Virus record (IMG/VR): IMGVR_UViG_3300042320_000567
Coordinates: 1-45,032 of that record
Reading direction: 5' to 3' (one strand)
Source: a virus
DNA length: 45,032 nt
The position numbers and the translations under genes were made by a program. The notes below the pieces were generated by a model. It was not told the DNA's origin. It made no database searches and worked only from the letters and a program-made list of their open reading frames with translations. Positions 662-38,500 of this stretch are shown one piece after another; the first letter of the stretch is position 1; each line of letters begins with the position of its first letter.

Positions 662-1139
662 TGCTATTTGATGGCGAAAAATAAAAGGCAAAAACACGCT
701 TATGAGCATTTGCAAGTGTTTTATTTTCCATTTCAACCCACTCAACTATATCGCTGGCGTAATTGCAAATATCATTTGCGTTTATAACTGCCCATTCAAA
801 TGGCAGCAAAACCCATTTTGATTTGCCGCGCTCATCAACATGCGTCAATCGAGGCCGAAAGCGTTGACCGTCCCACCTGGGGCCCATGCTCCATTCTTGG
901 TCGCATCCATAAAAAGTAGATTCTCTAAGCAATCGTTCCCATGGGCTGCCATCATAATTTAAGCCATGAAAATTAATTGATTTATAAAATGAACATGCCG
1001 CGTAATCTGTCGCGGATTGCGCATTGCCTGGCAGCTCATCCGCGCCATCTATATCTTGCGCTTCGCACCAAGCCTCAACAACTGCGGCAATAGCATCAGG
1101 CAGCATCATGCCTTCAAGATCAATGCAAAACTTGCTCAC
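651..1139 (-). CDS. Hypothetical protein, tryptophan- and tyrosine-rich
   Basis: A 162-residue protein of unknown function. The GTG start at 1139 overlaps the helicase stop by four bases (GTGA) and has GGAG nine bases upstream; an upstream ATG at 1196 would lie deep in the helicase gene. It is soluble and acidic in its N-terminal third, with an aromatic central part (FHGLNYDGSPWERLL). Local composition is more AT-rich than the neighbours, mostly at 660-1000, which suggests a recent arrival. No motif was recognised. Position between the helicase and the VRR-NUC nuclease suggests a nucleic-acid-related accessory role, by context only. Confidence 0.65.
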   Translation of the reverse strand: MSKFCIDLEGMMLPDAIAAVVEAWCEAQDIDGADELPGNAQSATDYAACSFYKSINFHGLNYDGSPWERLLRESTFYGCDQEWSMGPRWDGQRFRPRLTHVDERGKSKWVLLPFEWAVINANDICNYASDIVEWVEMENKTLANAHKRVFAFYFSPSNSSAF

Positions 1140-2497
1140 TTGACTTTGCTCCACTGTCCTTTGGTTTGGCGTGCGGCTAAGACGTGCTTTGCCCATGCGA
1201 CTGGATTTTTGTATCCCCGCTGCTGACCTAGTGCGATCAACTGCTGCAGCGTTTGAGCGCCGCTTTGCTCACGCCGCTTGGCGCGCATGGCTAGCTCCAC
1301 CAGCTCCCCATCCACCTGCTGCAGCTCGCGTGCCTCGGCAGCGAACATATGCCCACACTCACCGCATTGCTTGGCCTGGCTGGCCATGGCGGCAAAGCAA
1401 CTGGGGCACACCTTGACGCTGGGTGCTTTCTCCCGATCCCGCTTGCGCTCGCCGTCCAAGCTCCACTCGCGCGGCTCTAGGTGATGGCCAAGCCGGAGCG
1501 TATTGCCGACGTGATCCAGCACCACTGCTGCAGCCTTGCCGGGCGATGGCCTAAGGCACCGGCCGATCATCTGCAGGTGCAGGCTGGTGGATGCAGTGGG
1601 TCTGAGCAGGATGCAGCCGCCGACTGATGGAACATCGACGCCCTCGCCGATCAGTGCGCAGCTGGTGAGCACCTTGATCCGGCCAGTGCCTAGCGCCTGC
1701 AGCAGGTCACGCCGCTGCTCGCTAGTCATGCTGCCGTCAATACTGGCCGCGGCGATGCCTGCTGATTGGAAGAGTGCTGCCACTGCTTCCGCGTGCGCCA
1801 CAGAGCAGCAGAACGCGATTGCAGTCTGGCCCGATAGGTGCTTGCGGTAGTGGCCTAGGCAGTCGCCCATGATCGTGCCGACACGGTGCTCCGCCTCACG
1901 GGCGTCAAAGTCACCCATCCGCTTGCGCAGGCCGGTGGTGTCAAAACCCGGTGGCGCTAGCACCTTGGCCGCGGCGAGGTAGCCGTTGTCGGTTAGCCAG
2001 GCAGCGCTGGGACCTTCCACCATGACCTGATAGTGCTCGCCAAGGCCGCGGCCGTCGAGCCTGATCGGGGTTGCGGTGACGCCCAGCAGATGCGATTGGT
2101 GGAAATGCTCCAGCGTTTTGGCCCAGGTGCCGGCATTGCTGTGGTGGGCCTCGTCGATGATCACCAGCTGAAAGAAATCAGGCGGCAGTTTGTGCAGCCT
2201 GCGGGCAAGCGTCTGGACGCTGGCAACCTGCACTGCTGCGGATAGATCCATGCCGCGGTTGGCGGCGATCACGCCATGCGGCATCGGCAGTGAACGGCAG
2301 GCTTGATCCAGCAGCTCCTGCCGGTGAACGGCGATCAACACGCGGTTGCCCTTGCGAGCAGCGGATTGGGCGATGTGGCTGAAAATCACCGTCTTGCCGC
2401 CGCCGGTCGGCAGCACTGCCAGCACCTTGCGGTGGCCTAGCTGGTATTGCAGGCGGATGGCGGTGATCAGCTGTTGCTGGTAGGGGCGGAGGTTCAT
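1136..2497 (-). CDS. Superfamily II DEAD/DEAH-box helicase
   Basis: A 453-residue DNA helicase of the SSL2/type III restriction helicase class (COG1061-like). Motif I PTGGGKT is at residues 30-36, motif II DEAH at 115-118, motif III TAT near 141, and motif VI QMIGRCLRPS in the second RecA fold. A C-terminal zinc-binding stretch has CPSC and CGECGH. The ATG at 2497 follows GGAG by eight bases and overlaps the upstream stop as ATGA; an upstream in-frame start would add 53 residues unlike the family. It probably unwinds or branch-migrates phage DNA in replication or recombination, acting with the VRR-NUC nuclease downstream in the same unit. Confidence 0.9.
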   Translation of the reverse strand: MNLRPYQQQLITAIRLQYQLGHRKVLAVLPTGGGKTVIFSHIAQSAARKGNRVLIAVHRQELLDQACRSLPMPHGVIAANRGMDLSAAVQVASVQTLARRLHKLPPDFFQLVIIDEAHHSNAGTWAKTLEHFHQSHLLGVTATPIRLDGRGLGEHYQVMVEGPSAAWLTDNGYLAAAKVLAPPGFDTTGLRKRMGDFDAREAEHRVGTIMGDCLGHYRKHLSGQTAIAFCCSVAHAEAVAALFQSAGIAAASIDGSMTSEQRRDLLQALGTGRIKVLTSCALIGEGVDVPSVGGCILLRPTASTSLHLQMIGRCLRPSPGKAAAVVLDHVGNTLRLGHHLEPREWSLDGERKRDREKAPSVKVCPSCFAAMASQAKQCGECGHMFAAEARELQQVDGELVELAMRAKRREQSGAQTLQQLIALGQQRGYKNPVAWAKHVLAARQTKGQWSKVK

Positions 2498-2742
2498 AGA
2501 GGCAGCTCCAATTGCGTGCCATCTGCAGGTGTTCCGTGCATGGCAATTTGGGCCATAGTCACGGCACGGCGTTGCCGCTCGTATGCAGGCCGCGCATAGC
2601 CCAGCTGGTAAAGGTGCAGATCGTTCTGCAGCAAGGCAATGGCGACAGCTCGCCATGACGGCGCGCGGCCTGACGCAGCTACTTTGGCCGGCACCTCATC
2701 TGGAATCTCGTGCGAATAACAACGGGCTTTCCACGTGCGCAC
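2494..2742 (-). CDS. Small stand-alone protein resembling the DUF3440 C-terminal region of PAPS-reductase-like proteins
   Basis: About 82 residues with the signature RTWKARCYSHEIPDEVP, then RAPSWRAVAIALLQNDLHL. The second part recalls the tail of IbrA/DUF3440 proteins, and a similar NSMVTSWKRFAITMLKNDH occurs at the end of the PAPS-reductase-like gene upstream. Its presence as a separate protein suggests a partner or regulator of that enzyme. The start is uncertain: GTG at 2742 keeps the overlap with the upstream gene to 47 bases, while ATG at 2826 would give 110 residues and 131 bases of overlap. The end couples to the helicase start (ATGA). Confidence 0.65.
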   Translation of the reverse strand: MRTWKARCYSHEIPDEVPAKVAASGRAPSWRAVAIALLQNDLHLYQLGYARPAYERQRRAVTMAQIAMHGTPADGTQLELPL

Positions 2743-3121
2743 GTATTCCGAGACTCTGGCGGTAGCGCATCTCCCAGGCGCGAATGGCTCGATCCGCTTG
2801 TTGGTTTGCCAATGTCCGTTGCTCATCGGTCAAAAGTCCCCATGCTTGTCTAATGATGTCTTCAGGGCATCGAAGGGCCAGCGCGCAGGCTGCGTGCCCG
2901 ATCCATGCTTTGCGGTTGAGGTTGTAGTCAGTCAGTGCATTGATGCAGCTGTTGGGCCATTCCACGGTGACCCGTTGCATGTAGCGCCCGTAAAGGCGGT
3001 GATTGCCGGTGAAGATCTGTGCGCGATACAGAGCAATGCGTCGATTTGGCACATCGCCCCACATGTTGTAGCCGATCTCTTCCCAAGTATCAATGGGCAA
3101 CCAGATCCTTTTGAGCTTCAC
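2696..3121 (-). CDS. Conserved hypothetical protein of the IbrAB-like cluster
   Basis: A 141-residue protein. GTG at 3121 has AGAGG nine bases upstream and lies inside the end of the EctC-ParB gene (32-base overlap). It opens with KRIWLPIDTWEEIGYNMWGD and has a central VEWPNSCINALTDYNLNR and a C-terminal helix with TDEQRTLANQQADRAI. I recall proteins of this look beside phage IbrB-like genes but know no name or activity. It has many conserved-looking aromatic residues and no membrane segment. The tight overlaps on both sides suggest that it works with the PAPS-reductase-like and ParB-like proteins. Confidence 0.7.
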   Translation of the reverse strand: MKLKRIWLPIDTWEEIGYNMWGDVPNRRIALYRAQIFTGNHRLYGRYMQRVTVEWPNSCINALTDYNLNRKAWIGHAACALALRCPEDIIRQAWGLLTDEQRTLANQQADRAIRAWEMRYRQSLGIRAHVESPLLFARDSR

Positions 3122-4031
3122 GTTCGAGATCCTCTGTGATGTTGTCGATCTGCTCAACGTCCCATGCCTTGCTGAAATCCTTGCCAAGGAATAGCGAGGC
3201 TAGACCGGTCACCTGTTTCAGGCGCAACAGCTCATCAGGGCTCATGCCAATATGCTTGCAAATCCATGCATCGCCTTTGCCCATCTCGATCAATTCGGCA
3301 ACGATCACGCTCATCAGTTCGATGTTGTGTGAACCACGAGCGCGGTTGTGACGGATGGTTGACGCCATGCGGTCATGGAGCTCCTTGCGGAGTACAACCA
3401 CTGGCAAGCGGCCACCTTCGCGTTCACGGATGCGTTGGCTGTTTTTTAGCGTCAGGTATCGATGAAAACCGTCAACGACCACATAAAGGTCACGCTCGGC
3501 ATCATGCACGACAACGACAGGTTGCGTGTAACCATCTTCCCAGATGGATGTTTCGAGTAGCGCCATTTCAGGCGGCGCCACAGAGTTGGGGTTGTAATCG
3601 TTGGCGGTAACTTTCTCAATAGGAATACTGCGAACAGAATAGACCGGGGATCGCCAAGGGTAAGAGTCGTTCTCGTCATGGAGTTCATTGCCTTTAAGGG
3701 GTGGGTTGAATACGCAGATCAACGTGGTGGGCTCTAAGGCTTCAAACGTGTGAGCATCGTGCTTGTCAAGCACGTAGGTCACGTCAGGGCCAATCGCGAT
3801 GATTTCTTGCGTGGTTTCATTGATCAGCAGACCTTTGCCGCTGACGCAGTAGCACGTTTCAAGGTGGTGTTGATAGTGCCAGCGGTGCGGCTTGCCAGGG
3901 TGAATAACGGTTTTAGTCATGCTGTAGCCCATGCCGTCGGTTTCGACGACAAGCCGATGACTGGTGAAACCACCACGTGGGCATTGCACAACGCGGTCAT
4001 CAGGAAGTTGTGCGGCGTTCAGGATCTTCAT
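3090..4031 (-). CDS. Fusion of an ectoine-synthase-like (EctC) cupin and a ParB/IbrB-like domain
   Basis: A 313-residue two-domain protein. Residues 1-125 match EctC over its whole length, ending VFNPPLKGNELHDENDSYP as the family does. The literature iron ligands of EctC (Glu57, Tyr85, His93) correspond here to E58, Y86 and H94. The substrate-contact positions Thr40, Cys105, Phe107, Glu115 and His117 correspond to T41, C106, F108, E116 and H118, a constant offset of one. Residues about 130-240 are ParB-like with NPNSVAPPEM, DGYTQPVVVV and VVVDGFHRYL, and a helix-turn-helix-like end follows. ATG at 4031 overlaps the upstream stop (ATGA); no Shine-Dalgarno is seen, so coupling is likely. EctC closes N-gamma-acetyl-diaminobutyrate to ectoine; whether this domain does so, or senses or modifies something else, is unknown. 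No ectA or ectB is present. Confidence 0.85.
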   Translation of the reverse strand: MKILNAAQLPDDRVVQCPRGGFTSHRLVVETDGMGYSMTKTVIHPGKPHRWHYQHHLETCYCVSGKGLLINETTQEIIAIGPDVTYVLDKHDAHTFEALEPTTLICVFNPPLKGNELHDENDSYPWRSPVYSVRSIPIEKVTANDYNPNSVAPPEMALLETSIWEDGYTQPVVVVHDAERDLYVVVDGFHRYLTLKNSQRIREREGGRLPVVVLRKELHDRMASTIRHNRARGSHNIELMSVIVAELIEMGKGDAWICKHIGMSPDELLRLKQVTGLASLFLGKDFSKAWDVEQIDNITEDLEREAQKDLVAH

Positions 4032-5347
4032 TTGGCGGAACGGTTGAGGACTTGGCTGTACTTGCGTTGGATTGATCTCTGGCGGCGCTGCTGCTCTTGC
4101 GTTGGCGCCAGGCCCAAGTATTTGCAGGTGTGGTCGTTCTTGAGCATTGTGATAGCAAACCTCTTCCAAGATGTGACCATGCTGTTGTGGCATGGCAGAT
4201 CATCAAGGTGGTCAGGCGGCACCTTGATCACTACGCGGCGCAAATTGTTGCCGCCGTGGCGCGTGGTGCCATTGATGTAAAAGCGAATGCCAATACGGCC
4301 AAGAGCTTCAATAATGGCATCAGGAAGACCGCGCCCCACCCTGCCCCAGTAGCGGATTGACTGGATGAAGCGCTGCTTAAAATTTGCGCTTGACTGATCC
4401 GGCAAGGTGGCCAGCAGGAACTTCACAAAGGATTTCCAAGTGTGGCCTGCGGGCAGCTTAAAGGATTTGTAATCAAGCTGTTTGCCGTAGGTAGCCATGA
4501 AGTTAGCACCGCCAACTCTCGCGCAAAGCCTCGCCCAGACCTGCGGGTCGATTACCCGATACATAGCAAGACTGGATTTGGACTCTGACATAAACGGAGA
4601 AGCAACCCGCATCTTTTTGATAGGAATGCCAGCCATGTAAAACACGTCATAAAGGTTGTTGTAATCCCATCCAAATTTGGCGTTAGCGGTCCAGATGTCC
4701 TCTGTGCGCCAGTCATAGATCGGATAGCAGTTGTAGGTATGCGCCGTGTTTTTCTTGGTCCACATGCGGCCAAGCATGGTCTCTTTCTCTTGATTCAGGA
4801 TGGCCCGAAAACGGTTGAGCGATTCAACGGTGCGAATGCCGATCAAGTTTGCGCAAGGCTCGCCATGGCTGTACCACTCCGCAAACATGTCCCAGAAAGT
4901 GGCGTAATCCATGTTCTCGATGAACAGGTCGCCAAAGGGATGGTTTTGGAGATTGACGATGTAATCCTGCTGCGGCATGGGGCGAATCCAGCGGTGACGG
5001 TCGGCTTCGCCCCAGCACTGCCAGTCAATTTCGTAGGAGGAAACGGTGCAAGGCAGGGTGATGGGCAGGCAGCACCAATAGATGTCAAGGATGTCCCGGT
5101 TGGCTTGGAGGATGCGATGCATGAACTCCTCGCTATGGGTGTAATTGGCCTCGTTGTCCATAATCTGAACGCCAATTTTGATCGGCAGCTTGCGCTCTCG
5201 CACGTAGTCGCAAACAAGATTCAGAAGAACTCCGCTGTCCTTGCCACCAGAGAAGGAGACGTACACACGGGTAAAATGCTGAAAGATAAAGTCGAGCCGC
5301 TCAATAGCGGCGTCGTAAACATTTTGCTCTAAATAGGTTCTGCTCAT
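4028..5347 (-). CDS. PAPS-reductase-family ATP pyrophosphatase, IbrA/DUF3440-like
   Basis: A 439-residue protein with the PP-loop SFSGGKDSG at residues 31-39, which binds ATP in PAPS reductases, DndC and related enzymes that adenylate a substrate. The C-terminal third is DUF3440-like (SMVTSWKRFAITMLKNDH). This arrangement matches IbrA, the partner of ParB-like IbrB in Escherichia coli, and an IbrB-like domain is indeed encoded by the next gene. I infer activation of a substrate by ATP, perhaps sulfur or another group transfer to a nucleic acid or nucleotide; the true substrate is unknown. The ATG at 5347 overlaps the stop of the small gene upstream (ATGA). It is not expected to be a sulfate-assimilation enzyme, given its length and neighbours. 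Confidence 0.88.
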   Translation of the reverse strand: MSRTYLEQNVYDAAIERLDFIFQHFTRVYVSFSGGKDSGVLLNLVCDYVRERKLPIKIGVQIMDNEANYTHSEEFMHRILQANRDILDIYWCCLPITLPCTVSSYEIDWQCWGEADRHRWIRPMPQQDYIVNLQNHPFGDLFIENMDYATFWDMFAEWYSHGEPCANLIGIRTVESLNRFRAILNQEKETMLGRMWTKKNTAHTYNCYPIYDWRTEDIWTANAKFGWDYNNLYDVFYMAGIPIKKMRVASPFMSESKSSLAMYRVIDPQVWARLCARVGGANFMATYGKQLDYKSFKLPAGHTWKSFVKFLLATLPDQSSANFKQRFIQSIRYWGRVGRGLPDAIIEALGRIGIRFYINGTTRHGGNNLRRVVIKVPPDHLDDLPCHNSMVTSWKRFAITMLKNDHTCKYLGLAPTQEQQRRQRSIQRKYSQVLNRSAK

Positions 5348-5597: not shown

Positions 5598-5726
5598 ATC
5601 TCAGTTTTGTTCACGCCGCAACAGATGCAGTGGCTAGACCGGCAACGCGCTGCTGGCCTGTCCCGCAGCGCAGTAATCCGCCTTGTGGTTGAGGAAGCCA
5701 TGCGCCGCGCCAAGGAGTCCGAGTGA
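5589..5726 (+). CDS. Small ribbon-helix-helix (CopG-like) DNA-binding protein
   Basis: A 45-residue protein, the size of CopG, with a beta strand ISVLFTPQQ, then helix MQWLDRQRAAGL, a turn, and helix SRSAVIRLVVEEAMRRA. This is the ribbon-helix-helix pattern of dimeric repressors. I chose GTG at 5589; GTG at 5529 would add 20 residues encoded by the inverted repeat itself, which would be unusual. It is first in the rightward block beside the candidate operator, so it may repress its own and the divergent promoter. The stop overlaps the GTG of the primase gene (GTGA), preceded by AAGGAG. Confidence 0.7.
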   Translation: MHPISVLFTPQQMQWLDRQRAAGLSRSAVIRLVVEEAMRRAKESE

Positions 5727-7792
5727 ACCTGCGCGATGAGTTAAACCGCCTGCCCGATGGGTGGGGATACGTTGCTGTTGACGGCCAGAAGCGGCCGTAT
5801 CAACTCAAGTGGCAGGACAACCCACTAGATAAAGCCAGCCTGCAGGCCGAACTTGATTCCGGTCGCGCTCGTGCTATCGGTGTTTGCTGTGGTGTGCCAT
5901 CTGGTGGCCTGCTGTTCCTAGACCACGACGGCCGCAGCGCTAGCACCATCCTTCGCGACTGGGGTTGTCCCATGTCGTCGTTGCCGCGTTCGTGGACTGT
6001 TACCTCCGGTCGTGACGGCAGGTTTCAGGTCATCTACCGCGTACCAGAGGAGTATTGGCATGGCATCGCCACACGCAAATACAAGTCAGGTGTCACCGAC
6101 TCCGACGGCAAGCCCGAGCAGGTGGAGCTCCGTTGGACCGGCTGCCAGTCTGTTGTAGCCGGCGCGCACCCAACCACCAGCGGTTACCGCTGGGTAGCCA
6201 AATACAGCCCCGAAGACCTCGACCTAGCCGAGGCGCCGCTTTGCCTGATCGAGCGGATGCTTAAGCCAGTGGCCGAACCGGTGGTCTTGCCACCAGTAGC
6301 GCATGGCGCTGACGATGCCGCCCGGGCGCGTTCTTACCTCGAAGCCCTGGCCAGCAGTCGCGCTGATGACTACGACGACTGGCTAGCCGTTGGGATGGCG
6401 CTCCATAGCGTTGGCGATGACGCCTTGCTAGACGACTGGGAGCAGTGGTCAGCGCAGTCCGGCAAGCACAAGCCCAGTGATTGCCAGCGCAAATGGCGCA
6501 GCTTCAAGAAATCCGGCATCAGCCTTGGCACCCTTGGCGACATGGCCAAGAAAGACGGCTGGCGACCCCATCGGCGTGAGCCGCAGCGCAGGGTTGCGAC
6601 AGGCGGCGGCAGTGGTGACAGCGATGCCAATGCGCCGATCATCACGAAACCGGAAAAGCTGGAAACCGCAGAGCTATTGGCACTGCTACGCAGTCAAACC
6701 GATGAGATCCGCTACAACGTCTTCACCCAACAGATCGAAATCAAGGGCAAGGTCATTGATGGCGCCGACCGCTTTTACCTGAAGCTGGCAGAGATGGGCT
6801 ACAAGGTCGGCAAGGAGCTGGCTATTGACTGCCTTGTGCAGGTCGCCAACGAGAACCCCTACGACCCCGTAACCGAGTACCTGACCCATTGCGAGCAGCA
6901 CGTTCAGCCGGCTTACATCGACGGCCTTGCTACCGCATACCTTCGCCCAGAGGACCAAGGCGGTGAGACCACGATCTACGACGAGATGCTTAAGCGCACC
7001 ATGATCGGTGCTGTTGCTCGTGCCTTTGATCCTGGTTTCAAGCATGATACCGCTTGCGTGATCATGGGCGATCAAGGTGCATACAAATCCAGCTTCTGGG
7101 GCTGTTTGGGTGGTCCGTTTTACTCAGATGCGTTGGGTGACATCAGCACCAAAGACGACGTAATGGTGCTCCATCGGTCATGGATAATGGAATGGGCGGA
7201 GCTTGATCACATCACCAATCGCAAGCACGCTGGACAAGTCAAGGCGTTTTTATCGCAGGCGGTAGATCTGCTCCGCGTGCCATATGGCAAGGCTGTTGAA
7301 GCATTCCCAAGGCGTGGCATCATTGTTGGCACCACCAATAAAACCGCTGGTTTTCTTGTAGATGAAACCGGCAACCGTCGTTTTTGGGTGATACCAACAA
7401 CCCGCACACAGGTGGATCAAATCAATACCGCCATGCTCTTAATGGAACGTGATGCCATCTGGTCTGCAGCGGTTCATGCCTACCGCAACGGTGAAACCAG
7501 CCGGCTGCCGGCTGCCATGGAGCTTGCCGTTCAGCAGGAAAACGATGCCTACATGATCGAGTCGCCATGGCGTGCCGCCATCCTTTCCTACCTCGCTGAT
7601 CGCCGCAGCACTGACCTGCTGACCTCCGAGGAGATCCTCGCCAAGGCCATCCAGAAACCCATGGAGCGCCAGTCCAAGGCCGACCAGATGCAGGTGGCTT
7701 CGATCCTGAAGGAGCTGGGTTGGGCGAAACGCCGCGAATCGACCGGCAAGAGGCGCTGGTACTACCAGTTGGACGGCCAACATGCCGGCTAG
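5723..7792 (+). CDS. Primase-polymerase / D5-VirE-type replicative helicase
   Basis: A 689-residue multidomain replication protein. Residues about 5-175 form a bifunctional primase-polymerase (AEP) domain with LLFLDHDG as the metal-binding acidic motif. Residues about 195-285 resemble the PriCT-2 segment (DYDDWLAVGMALH, CQRKWRSFK). The C-terminal half is a VirE/D5-like ATPase with a Walker A GDQGAYKSS (about 449-457), a Walker B-like SWIMEWAELD, and the arginine-bearing NRRFWVIP. GTG at 5723 has AAGGAG five bases upstream. It should prime and unwind phage DNA; with no DNA polymerase seen in the genome, host polymerase III probably extends. Confidence 0.9.
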   Translation: MNLRDELNRLPDGWGYVAVDGQKRPYQLKWQDNPLDKASLQAELDSGRARAIGVCCGVPSGGLLFLDHDGRSASTILRDWGCPMSSLPRSWTVTSGRDGRFQVIYRVPEEYWHGIATRKYKSGVTDSDGKPEQVELRWTGCQSVVAGAHPTTSGYRWVAKYSPEDLDLAEAPLCLIERMLKPVAEPVVLPPVAHGADDAARARSYLEALASSRADDYDDWLAVGMALHSVGDDALLDDWEQWSAQSGKHKPSDCQRKWRSFKKSGISLGTLGDMAKKDGWRPHRREPQRRVATGGGSGDSDANAPIITKPEKLETAELLALLRSQTDEIRYNVFTQQIEIKGKVIDGADRFYLKLAEMGYKVGKELAIDCLVQVANENPYDPVTEYLTHCEQHVQPAYIDGLATAYLRPEDQGGETTIYDEMLKRTMIGAVARAFDPGFKHDTACVIMGDQGAYKSSFWGCLGGPFYSDALGDISTKDDVMVLHRSWIMEWAELDHITNRKHAGQVKAFLSQAVDLLRVPYGKAVEAFPRRGIIVGTTNKTAGFLVDETGNRRFWVIPTTRTQVDQINTAMLLMERDAIWSAAVHAYRNGETSRLPAAMELAVQQENDAYMIESPWRAAILSYLADRRSTDLLTSEEILAKAIQKPMERQSKADQMQVASILKELGWAKRRESTGKRRWYYQLDGQHAG

Positions 7793-37387: not shown

Positions 37388-37627
37388 ATGATTGTGGAAC
37401 TATCAGTAGAGGATCAACTACGGATAGAAGGGCAGGCAAGAGCTGCCCTTGCCCATGATGACCCTAGCCAAGTGGCACATTTATGCGCGTCGCTGATTCG
37501 TCAAAATGCGTATCAATCTAAGCTAATCCAGCAGGCAACTGGTCATATTGCCAAACTAGAAATGGAGCAGTTTTTAAGCTGCTCCAAACCAAAGCGATGG
37601 TGGCAGCGACTGCTACGCCACCAGTGA
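37388..37627 (+). CDS. Small conserved protein at the end of the rightward block
   Basis: A 79-residue protein from ATG 37388: VELSVEDQLRIEGQARAALA, then SQVAHLCASLIRQNAYQSKL and a basic end. I recall similar proteins in T4-like cyanophages, unassigned. Other ATG codons at 37310 and 37370 would add sequence unlike this. Its end overlaps the end of the sigma factor gene by 15 bases (convergent). Confidence 0.6.
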   Translation: MIVELSVEDQLRIEGQARAALAHDDPSQVAHLCASLIRQNAYQSKLIQQATGHIAKLEMEQFLSCSKPKRWWQRLLRHQ

Positions 37628-38500
37628 TGGCTGCAGAATCAGCCTTAGCTTGCGTTGCGCACGTTGCGCACGCTGTCTGACGCGCTCTCTGCATACACCA
37701 AGATTGCGGCCAATTTCGGCATAACTTTCTGGTGTTTCACAGCCAATGCCATAGTTTCTACGCACAACATCCCTATCAAAGGGATCTAGGCGAAAAAAAG
37801 CCAGCTGCAGCTGCTCAACGCGCTCACAAATCTCTTCAGGGTTGTGGTCTTCATCAATGCCGTACTCGTCGGCAATCATGTCCAGTATTGTGCTACCATC
37901 TTCGGTGATCAGTGCATCTAGGCTTCGGTGTGGCCTATTGCGCTCCATCAGCATCAATAGCTCATCTGTTTTGATGTTGAGGATGTCGGCCACTTCGCGG
38001 ACAGTAGGCGTGCGGCCATTGGCTTGCGCAAACTCACGTTGGGTTTTGGCAGCAGCGTAAGTTTTCTCTAGCGCGTGTTGCGGCACTCGAATCAACCGCT
38101 CTTTGGTATCAATGGCGCGGGTAATGGCTTGGCGAATCCACCAGTAGGCATAAGTAGAAAACTTATACCCTTTAGTGCCGTCAAACATCTCCGCGGCACG
38201 ATGCAGGCCCAGTGCTCCTTCTTGGATCAAGTCCATTAGATCCATGTTGTTGGACTGCAGCCGGGTGACGTACCGCTTGGAGATATGAACCACCAAGCGC
38301 AAGTTGCAATTGATGATCATGTCACGCGCGCGAATGCCAACGCGGATCTCGCGTTGTTCTTGCTTGGTGCGTTCGCCTTTGGCGTCACGCAGCTCAAGGT
38401 ATCGCCGCACTTGACGCGACAGTTGAATTTCCTGCTCAGCCGACAGCAATGGATATCGGCCGATGGCGGTGAGGTACTGCTTGAACGAGTCGGGCGTCAT
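37613..38500 (-). CDS. RNA polymerase sigma-70 family factor, group 2-like
   Basis: A 295-residue sigma factor with regions 1.2 (SFKQYLTAIGRYPLLSAEQE), 2 (residues about 55-130, including GYKFSTYAYWWIRQAITRAI, the -10 recognition and melting part), 3 (about 135-210) and 4 (about 225-290, ending GRNLGVCRERVRQRAQRAQR for -35 recognition). Region 1.1 is missing, as in cyanobacterial group 2 sigma factors, which it resembles more than T4 gp55. Region 4.2 has RQRAQRAQRKL where RpoD has RQIEAKALRKL. It probably redirects host RNA polymerase to phage late promoters. It is the last gene of the leftward block, with its own 110-base upstream gap. Confidence 0.9.
   Translation of the reverse strand: MTPDSFKQYLTAIGRYPLLSAEQEIQLSRQVRRYLELRDAKGERTKQEQREIRVGIRARDMIINCNLRLVVHISKRYVTRLQSNNMDLMDLIQEGALGLHRAAEMFDGTKGYKFSTYAYWWIRQAITRAIDTKERLIRVPQHALEKTYAAAKTQREFAQANGRTPTVREVADILNIKTDELLMLMERNRPHRSLDALITEDGSTILDMIADEYGIDEDHNPEEICERVEQLQLAFFRLDPFDRDVVRRNYGIGCETPESYAEIGRNLGVCRERVRQRAQRAQRKLRLILQPSLVA

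Follow-up and report, generated by a model that had tools for sequence, protein, structure and literature searches.

An ectoine-synthase-type (EctC) cupin found in phages is very probably an active, dedicated part of an IbrA-IbrB (IbrAB) module, in which it is fused to, or encoded beside, a ParB/IbrB-like protein and accompanied by the PAPS-reductase-like protein IbrA. We consider it plausible, with a probability of roughly 0.45, that this module modifies phage nucleic acid and that EctC serves as its tailoring enzyme, the target and the substrate being those that we infer below.

The record studied is a virus record of 45,032 bases, and 'the window' refers to that whole stretch. It carries a direct terminal repeat of 109 bases and is therefore probably a complete genome. 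As the preliminary description of this DNA had stated, the EctC-ParB fusion is one uninterrupted gene at 3090-4031. It is a single open frame of 313 codons (313 aa) on the minus strand, and its start codon overlaps the stop codon of the PAPS-reductase-like gene upstream (ATG and TGA within ATGA). That description had named the fusion and its PAPS-reductase-like neighbour correctly and had missed two further members of the cassette, here called X and Y. The features are the following.

3654-4031, minus strand: EctC-type cupin domain, residues 1-126 of the fusion protein (P0001), with Fe ligands E58, Y86 and H94
3090-3653, minus strand: ParB/IbrB domain, residues 127-313 and the stop codon, with GYTQP, DGFHR and ASTIRHNRARGSH motifs followed by a helical region
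4028-5347, minus strand: IbrA, a PAPS-reductase-like N-type ATP pyrophosphatase with DUF3440 (PF11922, 1e-53; PF01507, 1e-8)
2696-3121, minus strand: X, about 141 aa, all-helical, conserved third member by co-occurrence (AF2 mean pLDDT 92.6)
2494-2826, minus strand: Y, up to 110 aa, conserved fourth member, resembling the C-terminal end of DUF3440
1136-2500, minus strand: SF2 helicase (PF04851, 2e-29), start inferred at MNLRPYQQQ, flanking a variable slot
5723-7792, plus strand: VapE-type primase (PF05272, 3e-60), the other flank of the slot, given as context only

Elsewhere in the window (37613-38500, minus strand) lies a complete phage-encoded sigma-70 family factor with regions 1.2, 2, 3 and 4.

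The N-terminal part of the fusion protein belongs to the ectoine synthase family. The Pfam profile PF06339 (Ectoine_synth) matches residues 15-126 at 2e-36 (125.5 bits against a cut-off of 27), the NCBIfam ectoine synthase model NF009806 scores 132.9 bits, above its curated cut-off of 128, and the sequence matches of this part in the PDB are to EctC only (6e-23). The EctC half of the AF2 model is of good quality, and Foldseek matches it best to EctC (5bxx, with a TM of 0.93 on the target and an rmsd of 1.4 A). Profile search and structural comparison, both proposed in the preliminary description, agree on EctC. Residue roles were taken from Czech et al. (PMC6344544). The window protein keeps the Fe ligands together with S24, R26, T41, Y53, E116 and H118. 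Across 144 distinct phage-type EctC proteins, S23, R25, T40, Y52, E57, Y85, E115 and H117 are invariant; the iron ligands Glu57, Tyr84/85 and His92/93 are kept in 144, 144 and 143 of them, respectively, and F106/107 in 142. The phage type shares with ectoine synthase (PF06339; 5BXX, 5ONM-5ONO) the cupin fold, the Fe ligands E57/Y84-85/H92-93 and the residues R25, T40, Y52, E114-115 and H116-117.

The earlier claim that all iron and substrate residues are retained stands for E58, Y86, H94, R26, T41 and Y53, but not for W21 and N38, which are F22 and T39 in the window protein. Phage-type EctC differs from ectoine synthase at these positions in general: a Trp near position 21 occurs in just one of 231 phage rows, the others having Phe or no residue there, and residue 38 is mostly Thr or His, at a position that varies among cellular EctC too. 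In addition, Cys60 is invariant in phage EctC, whereas the nine canonical EctC compared have Val. Trp21 is a conserved residue in bona fide (437) and orphan (145) EctC alike and is needed for most of the activity, of which a W21A variant keeps 9.7% (PMC6344544); its loss makes activity of the phage protein on N-gamma-acetyl-diaminobutyrate uncertain. The dN/dS ratio is 0.058 for EctC and 0.015 for ParB. Taken with the kept and the altered sites, these values indicate an iron centre under strong selection and a changed pocket wall, and with the invariant catalytic residues they sustain the earlier view that the cupin is not a mere remnant. As judged from these sequences, catalysis by the phage EctC is likely, and its natural substrate is uncertain.

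The C-terminal part has the ParB N-terminal (CTPase/NTPase) fold, as identified by its match to ParB-like phrog_2159 (4e-78) and by profile matches to Noc and ParB structures, despite a PF02195 (ParB_N) score slightly under the Pfam gathering score (1e-4, 22.7 against 26.3 bits). The GYTQP and DGFHRY motifs pointed out earlier are both present, in keeping with the original ParB-like assignment, and the ParB motifs are invariant in 131 rows. The ParB half of the full-length AF2 model is poor, so no structural claim is made for it. Its nearest relatives carry the name IbrB, and IbrA and IbrB are annotated (annotation only) as co-activators of prophage gene expression, a naming that suggests regulation. 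A survey of the ParB fold describes it as a nucleotide switch that binds CTP, ATP or GTP, and its main text makes no mention of ectoine synthase or IbrB (PMC12704722).

The fusion is real and recurrent, but neither unique nor required. Among the 144 distinct phage-type EctC proteins, 81 are fused to ParB and 63 are separate genes, and copies of the fusion that are 83-100% identical occur in dozens of independent contigs. The 81 distinct fused proteins rule out a sequencing error or two-gene artefact, and they supply the same fusion in other phages for which a survey had been suggested. It was previously annotated as 'ectoine synthase/ParB multidomain protein' in Mycobacterium phage Gaia (gp104) and Pseudoalteromonas phage XCL1123; among the papers searched, none described a function for the EctC-ParB fusion or the chemistry of DUF3440. 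Gaia gp104 has the same architecture and neighbours, IbrA being gp103 of that phage, and is 68% identical. XCL1123 has the same neighbours but carries the two domains as two adjacent genes, as do many virus contigs and two loci in metagenome-assembled genomes (MAGs; L088 and L089), and the XCL1123 gene pair places the fusion junction at the natural ends of both proteins. At another locus (L220, 4498-5259) a GIY-YIG-like homing endonuclease has, by eye, apparently been inserted between the EctC and ParB genes.

The content of the cassette, four to five proteins, is more constant than its order. The commonest arrangements in 158 EctC-bearing loci are IbrA>[EctC-ParB]>X>Y (86 loci) and IbrA>EctC>ParB>X>Y (36 loci); X>Y>IbrA>EctC>ParB, IbrA>EctC>X>Y>ParB and ParB>X>Y>IbrA>EctC also occur. 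Constant content in shuffled order argues for a functional module. Because the first two scans used phage-type motifs, the search was repeated with a cellular EctC seed, and IbrA and ParB were found in 78 of the 80 best viral loci (the best 80 of 104 candidates, a set that overlaps the earlier ones); of the other two, the first has ParB together with X and the second is truncated by a contig end. In a set of 80 genome loci, IbrA lies next to ParB/IbrB in essentially all, which identifies the pair as an IbrA/IbrB module. The IbrA/IbrB of Streptococcus, Listeria, E. coli and other (pro)phages are likewise two adjacent proteins, and a Streptococcus phage IbrB is about 60% identical to the ParB part of the window; most of these systems differ, however, in having neither EctC nor Y, and X is seldom present beyond one other phage type. 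EctC is absent from the majority of bacterial-genome IbrAB pairs and from a Microcystis phage type with the order ParB>X>IbrA. Small proteins of uncertain family (about 125-145 aa) occupy the place of EctC between IbrA and ParB at several loci (L112, L113, L158, L161-L166); a GNAT-like reading of them was rejected, with a Pfam value of 0.056 at best and no PDB support. In Tissierella praeacuta (L152, 6617-7992) IbrA lies in four frame pieces beside an intact ParB and is perhaps a decaying copy.

A tree of IbrA (130 rows, quick method, midpoint root) places all 71 EctC-bearing loci in a single clade (SH-aLRT 100, branch 0.79). EctC presence requires exactly one change on this tree, and the fused versus split state requires six, of which starred branches force no fewer than four. 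The tree is most simply explained by a single entry of EctC into IbrAB, followed by joint inheritance during which EctC became fused or split several times. The earlier suggestion that the cupin acts with its PAPS-reductase-like neighbour gains support from this single origin and from the inseparability of the two in phages.

The partners offer some indication of the chemistry. IbrA keeps the SGGKDS pyrophosphatase loop, and motif analysis found no ECGxH reductase (PAPS reductase/CysH) motif in it; it therefore probably adenylates something rather than reducing PAPS. IbrA proteins of the EctC clade differ from other IbrA in about 33 near-invariant, clade-specific residues, including C92, C100 and C275 (C93 is common to other IbrA), which hints that the chemistry of IbrA may have changed together with the arrival of EctC. 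The GTG start of X, read from the sequence, overlaps the end of the fusion gene; its confident AF2 model has no match in the PDB, and it has one strong viral match (57% identity). Y, whose true start may lie further in, matches DUF3440 at 0.084 (Pfam) and phrog_15645 at 1.6e-4, and is conserved in nearly all EctC loci. PADLOC returned no match for EctC-ParB, X or Y and a weak match of IbrA to DndC (2e-7), and against the NCBIfam DndC model the score is 21.5 bits, under a cut-off of 290.4. In DndB/DndC and DpdB/DpdA, a DNA-modification enzyme has a ParB-fold protein as its partner (PMC12839542), a pairing that the cassette resembles; the cassette differs in having no recognised cysteine desulfurase DndA, no recognised DndD/E and no TGT, and we claim no membership in either system. 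Fusobacterium phage phiFN37 (L245, 2716-8492) carries IbrA/IbrB and a helicase, then a second ParB-like gene with a queuine tRNA-ribosyltransferase-like gene, a pair that resembles the DpdB/DpdA DNA-modification pair.

At 81% identity to the terminase of Synechococcus phage S-H1, the window's terminase suggests a relative of the cyanosiphoviruses that probably infects picocyanobacteria. The window helicase is 75% identical to that of S-H1, whose copy adjoins an adenine methyltransferase. The slot between helicase and primase was compared in about 30 loci of sister cyanophages: it holds the Ibr-EctC cassette in the window and in four sister loci with the helicase in view, an adenine-specific methyltransferase and a second helicase in ten, S-H1 included, and other cargo in fifteen (about 15 of 30). 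None of these loci has both cassette and methyltransferase. As unrelated cargo uses the same slot, its sharing with methyltransferases supports DNA modification weakly; together with the replication and recombination genes that neighbour the cassette, it is suggestive of such modification and is not proof.

The IbrA motifs, the ParB precedents in Dnd and Dpd, and the chemistry of EctC together lead to the modification module proposed at the outset. EctC catalyses an intramolecular amidine formation with loss of water. In the proposed mechanism, the phage EctC would be a catalytically competent iron cupin and the dedicated tailoring subunit of the module. The ParB/IbrB part, with its nucleotide-binding fold and DNA-binding-like helical region, would load on DNA and position IbrA, which would adenylate a carbonyl, on either a base or a small molecule, and so activate it for joining to an amine. 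EctC would then cyclise the amide, whether attached or still a precursor, by condensing it with an adjacent amine; water would be lost and a cyclic amidine of the kind found in ectoine formed. The outcome would be modified phage nucleic acid, probably shielded from host nucleases. Catalysis, substrate, nucleic-acid target and protective role are all things that we infer. A narrower version would be a phage nucleic-acid hypermodification of a new kind, in which a ParB clamp controls the attachment of an amino-acid-like group to a base by the ATP pyrophosphatase and an EctC-type cyclodehydratase then turns that group into an ectoine-like cyclic amidine; at this level of detail it seems doubtful.

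The product of catalytic tailoring could instead be a small diffusible molecule, or else a nucleotide or RNA that carries the modification (for anti-defence, as a signal, or on tRNA), and not modified phage DNA; we regard this as possible, if tentatively so. EctC takes free small molecules as its substrates; TilS, TtcA and ThiI, which are PP-loop relatives, modify tRNA; and X has no recognisable nucleic-acid-binding fold. The ParB half, however, has a DNA-binding type of architecture, and the cassette lies among DNA replication and recombination genes. Regulation would be the role if the cupin bound an osmolyte or precursor and switched ParB/IbrB as a co-activator of phage genes. The annotation of IbrB as co-activator would agree with such a sensor, as would the occurrence of cupins within regulators and the nucleotide-switch nature of the ParB fold, but a sensor would not need to keep all catalytic and iron residues, EctC is encoded on its own for 63 of the 144 proteins, and most bacterial-genome IbrAB are without EctC. 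The MAG genomes that hold L087-L089 contain no other EctC and no EctB over the cut-off, which also argues against it. We consider the sensor unlikely, and it fits less well than joint action of the cupin with the PAPS-reductase-like protein.

Two further explanations are less probable still. Viral ectoine synthase has been proposed as an osmoprotective auxiliary gene in an estuary survey (PMC13079714), and genuine EctC family membership, with the metal and most substrate residues kept, would suit a gene that boosts host ectoine synthesis. Against this, an EctA-EctB query (tblastn) had no match in the window or in any of the viral EctC loci retrieved, including the 80 best viral loci (of 104) from the cellular-EctC seed, phage EctC stands practically always with IbrA/ParB, Trp21 is lost, and phage and cellular EctC part with one change on the tree. 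The phage of the window is closest to Synechococcus phages, and to our knowledge their hosts are not ectoine makers. We reject this explanation on context and regard it as very improbable; the preliminary description had noted no ectA, ectB or ectD nearby and called a phage ectoine pathway unlikely. One 'phage' record was left out of these counts (L085, 1-1633), in which EctB lies beside EctC and which is most likely bacterial DNA. A plasmid-type partition protein for phage-plasmid maintenance with an inherited, idle cupin would account for the ParB fold and for the PHROG name 'ParB-like partition protein', but no ParA was noticed among the annotated neighbours (from a reading of the annotation only), the IbrA partner is fixed in essentially all 80 genome loci, and the cupin is under strong purifying selection; there is hardly any probability left for it.

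IbrA/IbrB occur in hundreds of phages and are often labelled as sulfur-metabolism genes, and a well-understood cyclising enzyme locked into one branch of IbrAB is a strong clue to their chemistry. Gaia, grown on M. smegmatis mc2 155, is a cultured phage in which this chemistry is open to experiment. Viral 'ectoine synthase' genes counted as osmoprotective (PMC13079714) most likely have another job, and the cassette offers a possible parallel for the orphan EctC of cells. On plasmids of Aliiroseovarius, Rhizobium and Agrobacterium (L396, L398 and L404), orphan ectoine synthase genes lie beside ketosynthase, carrier-protein or adenylate-forming genes, which suggests that these EctC are used in other biosynthetic pathways.
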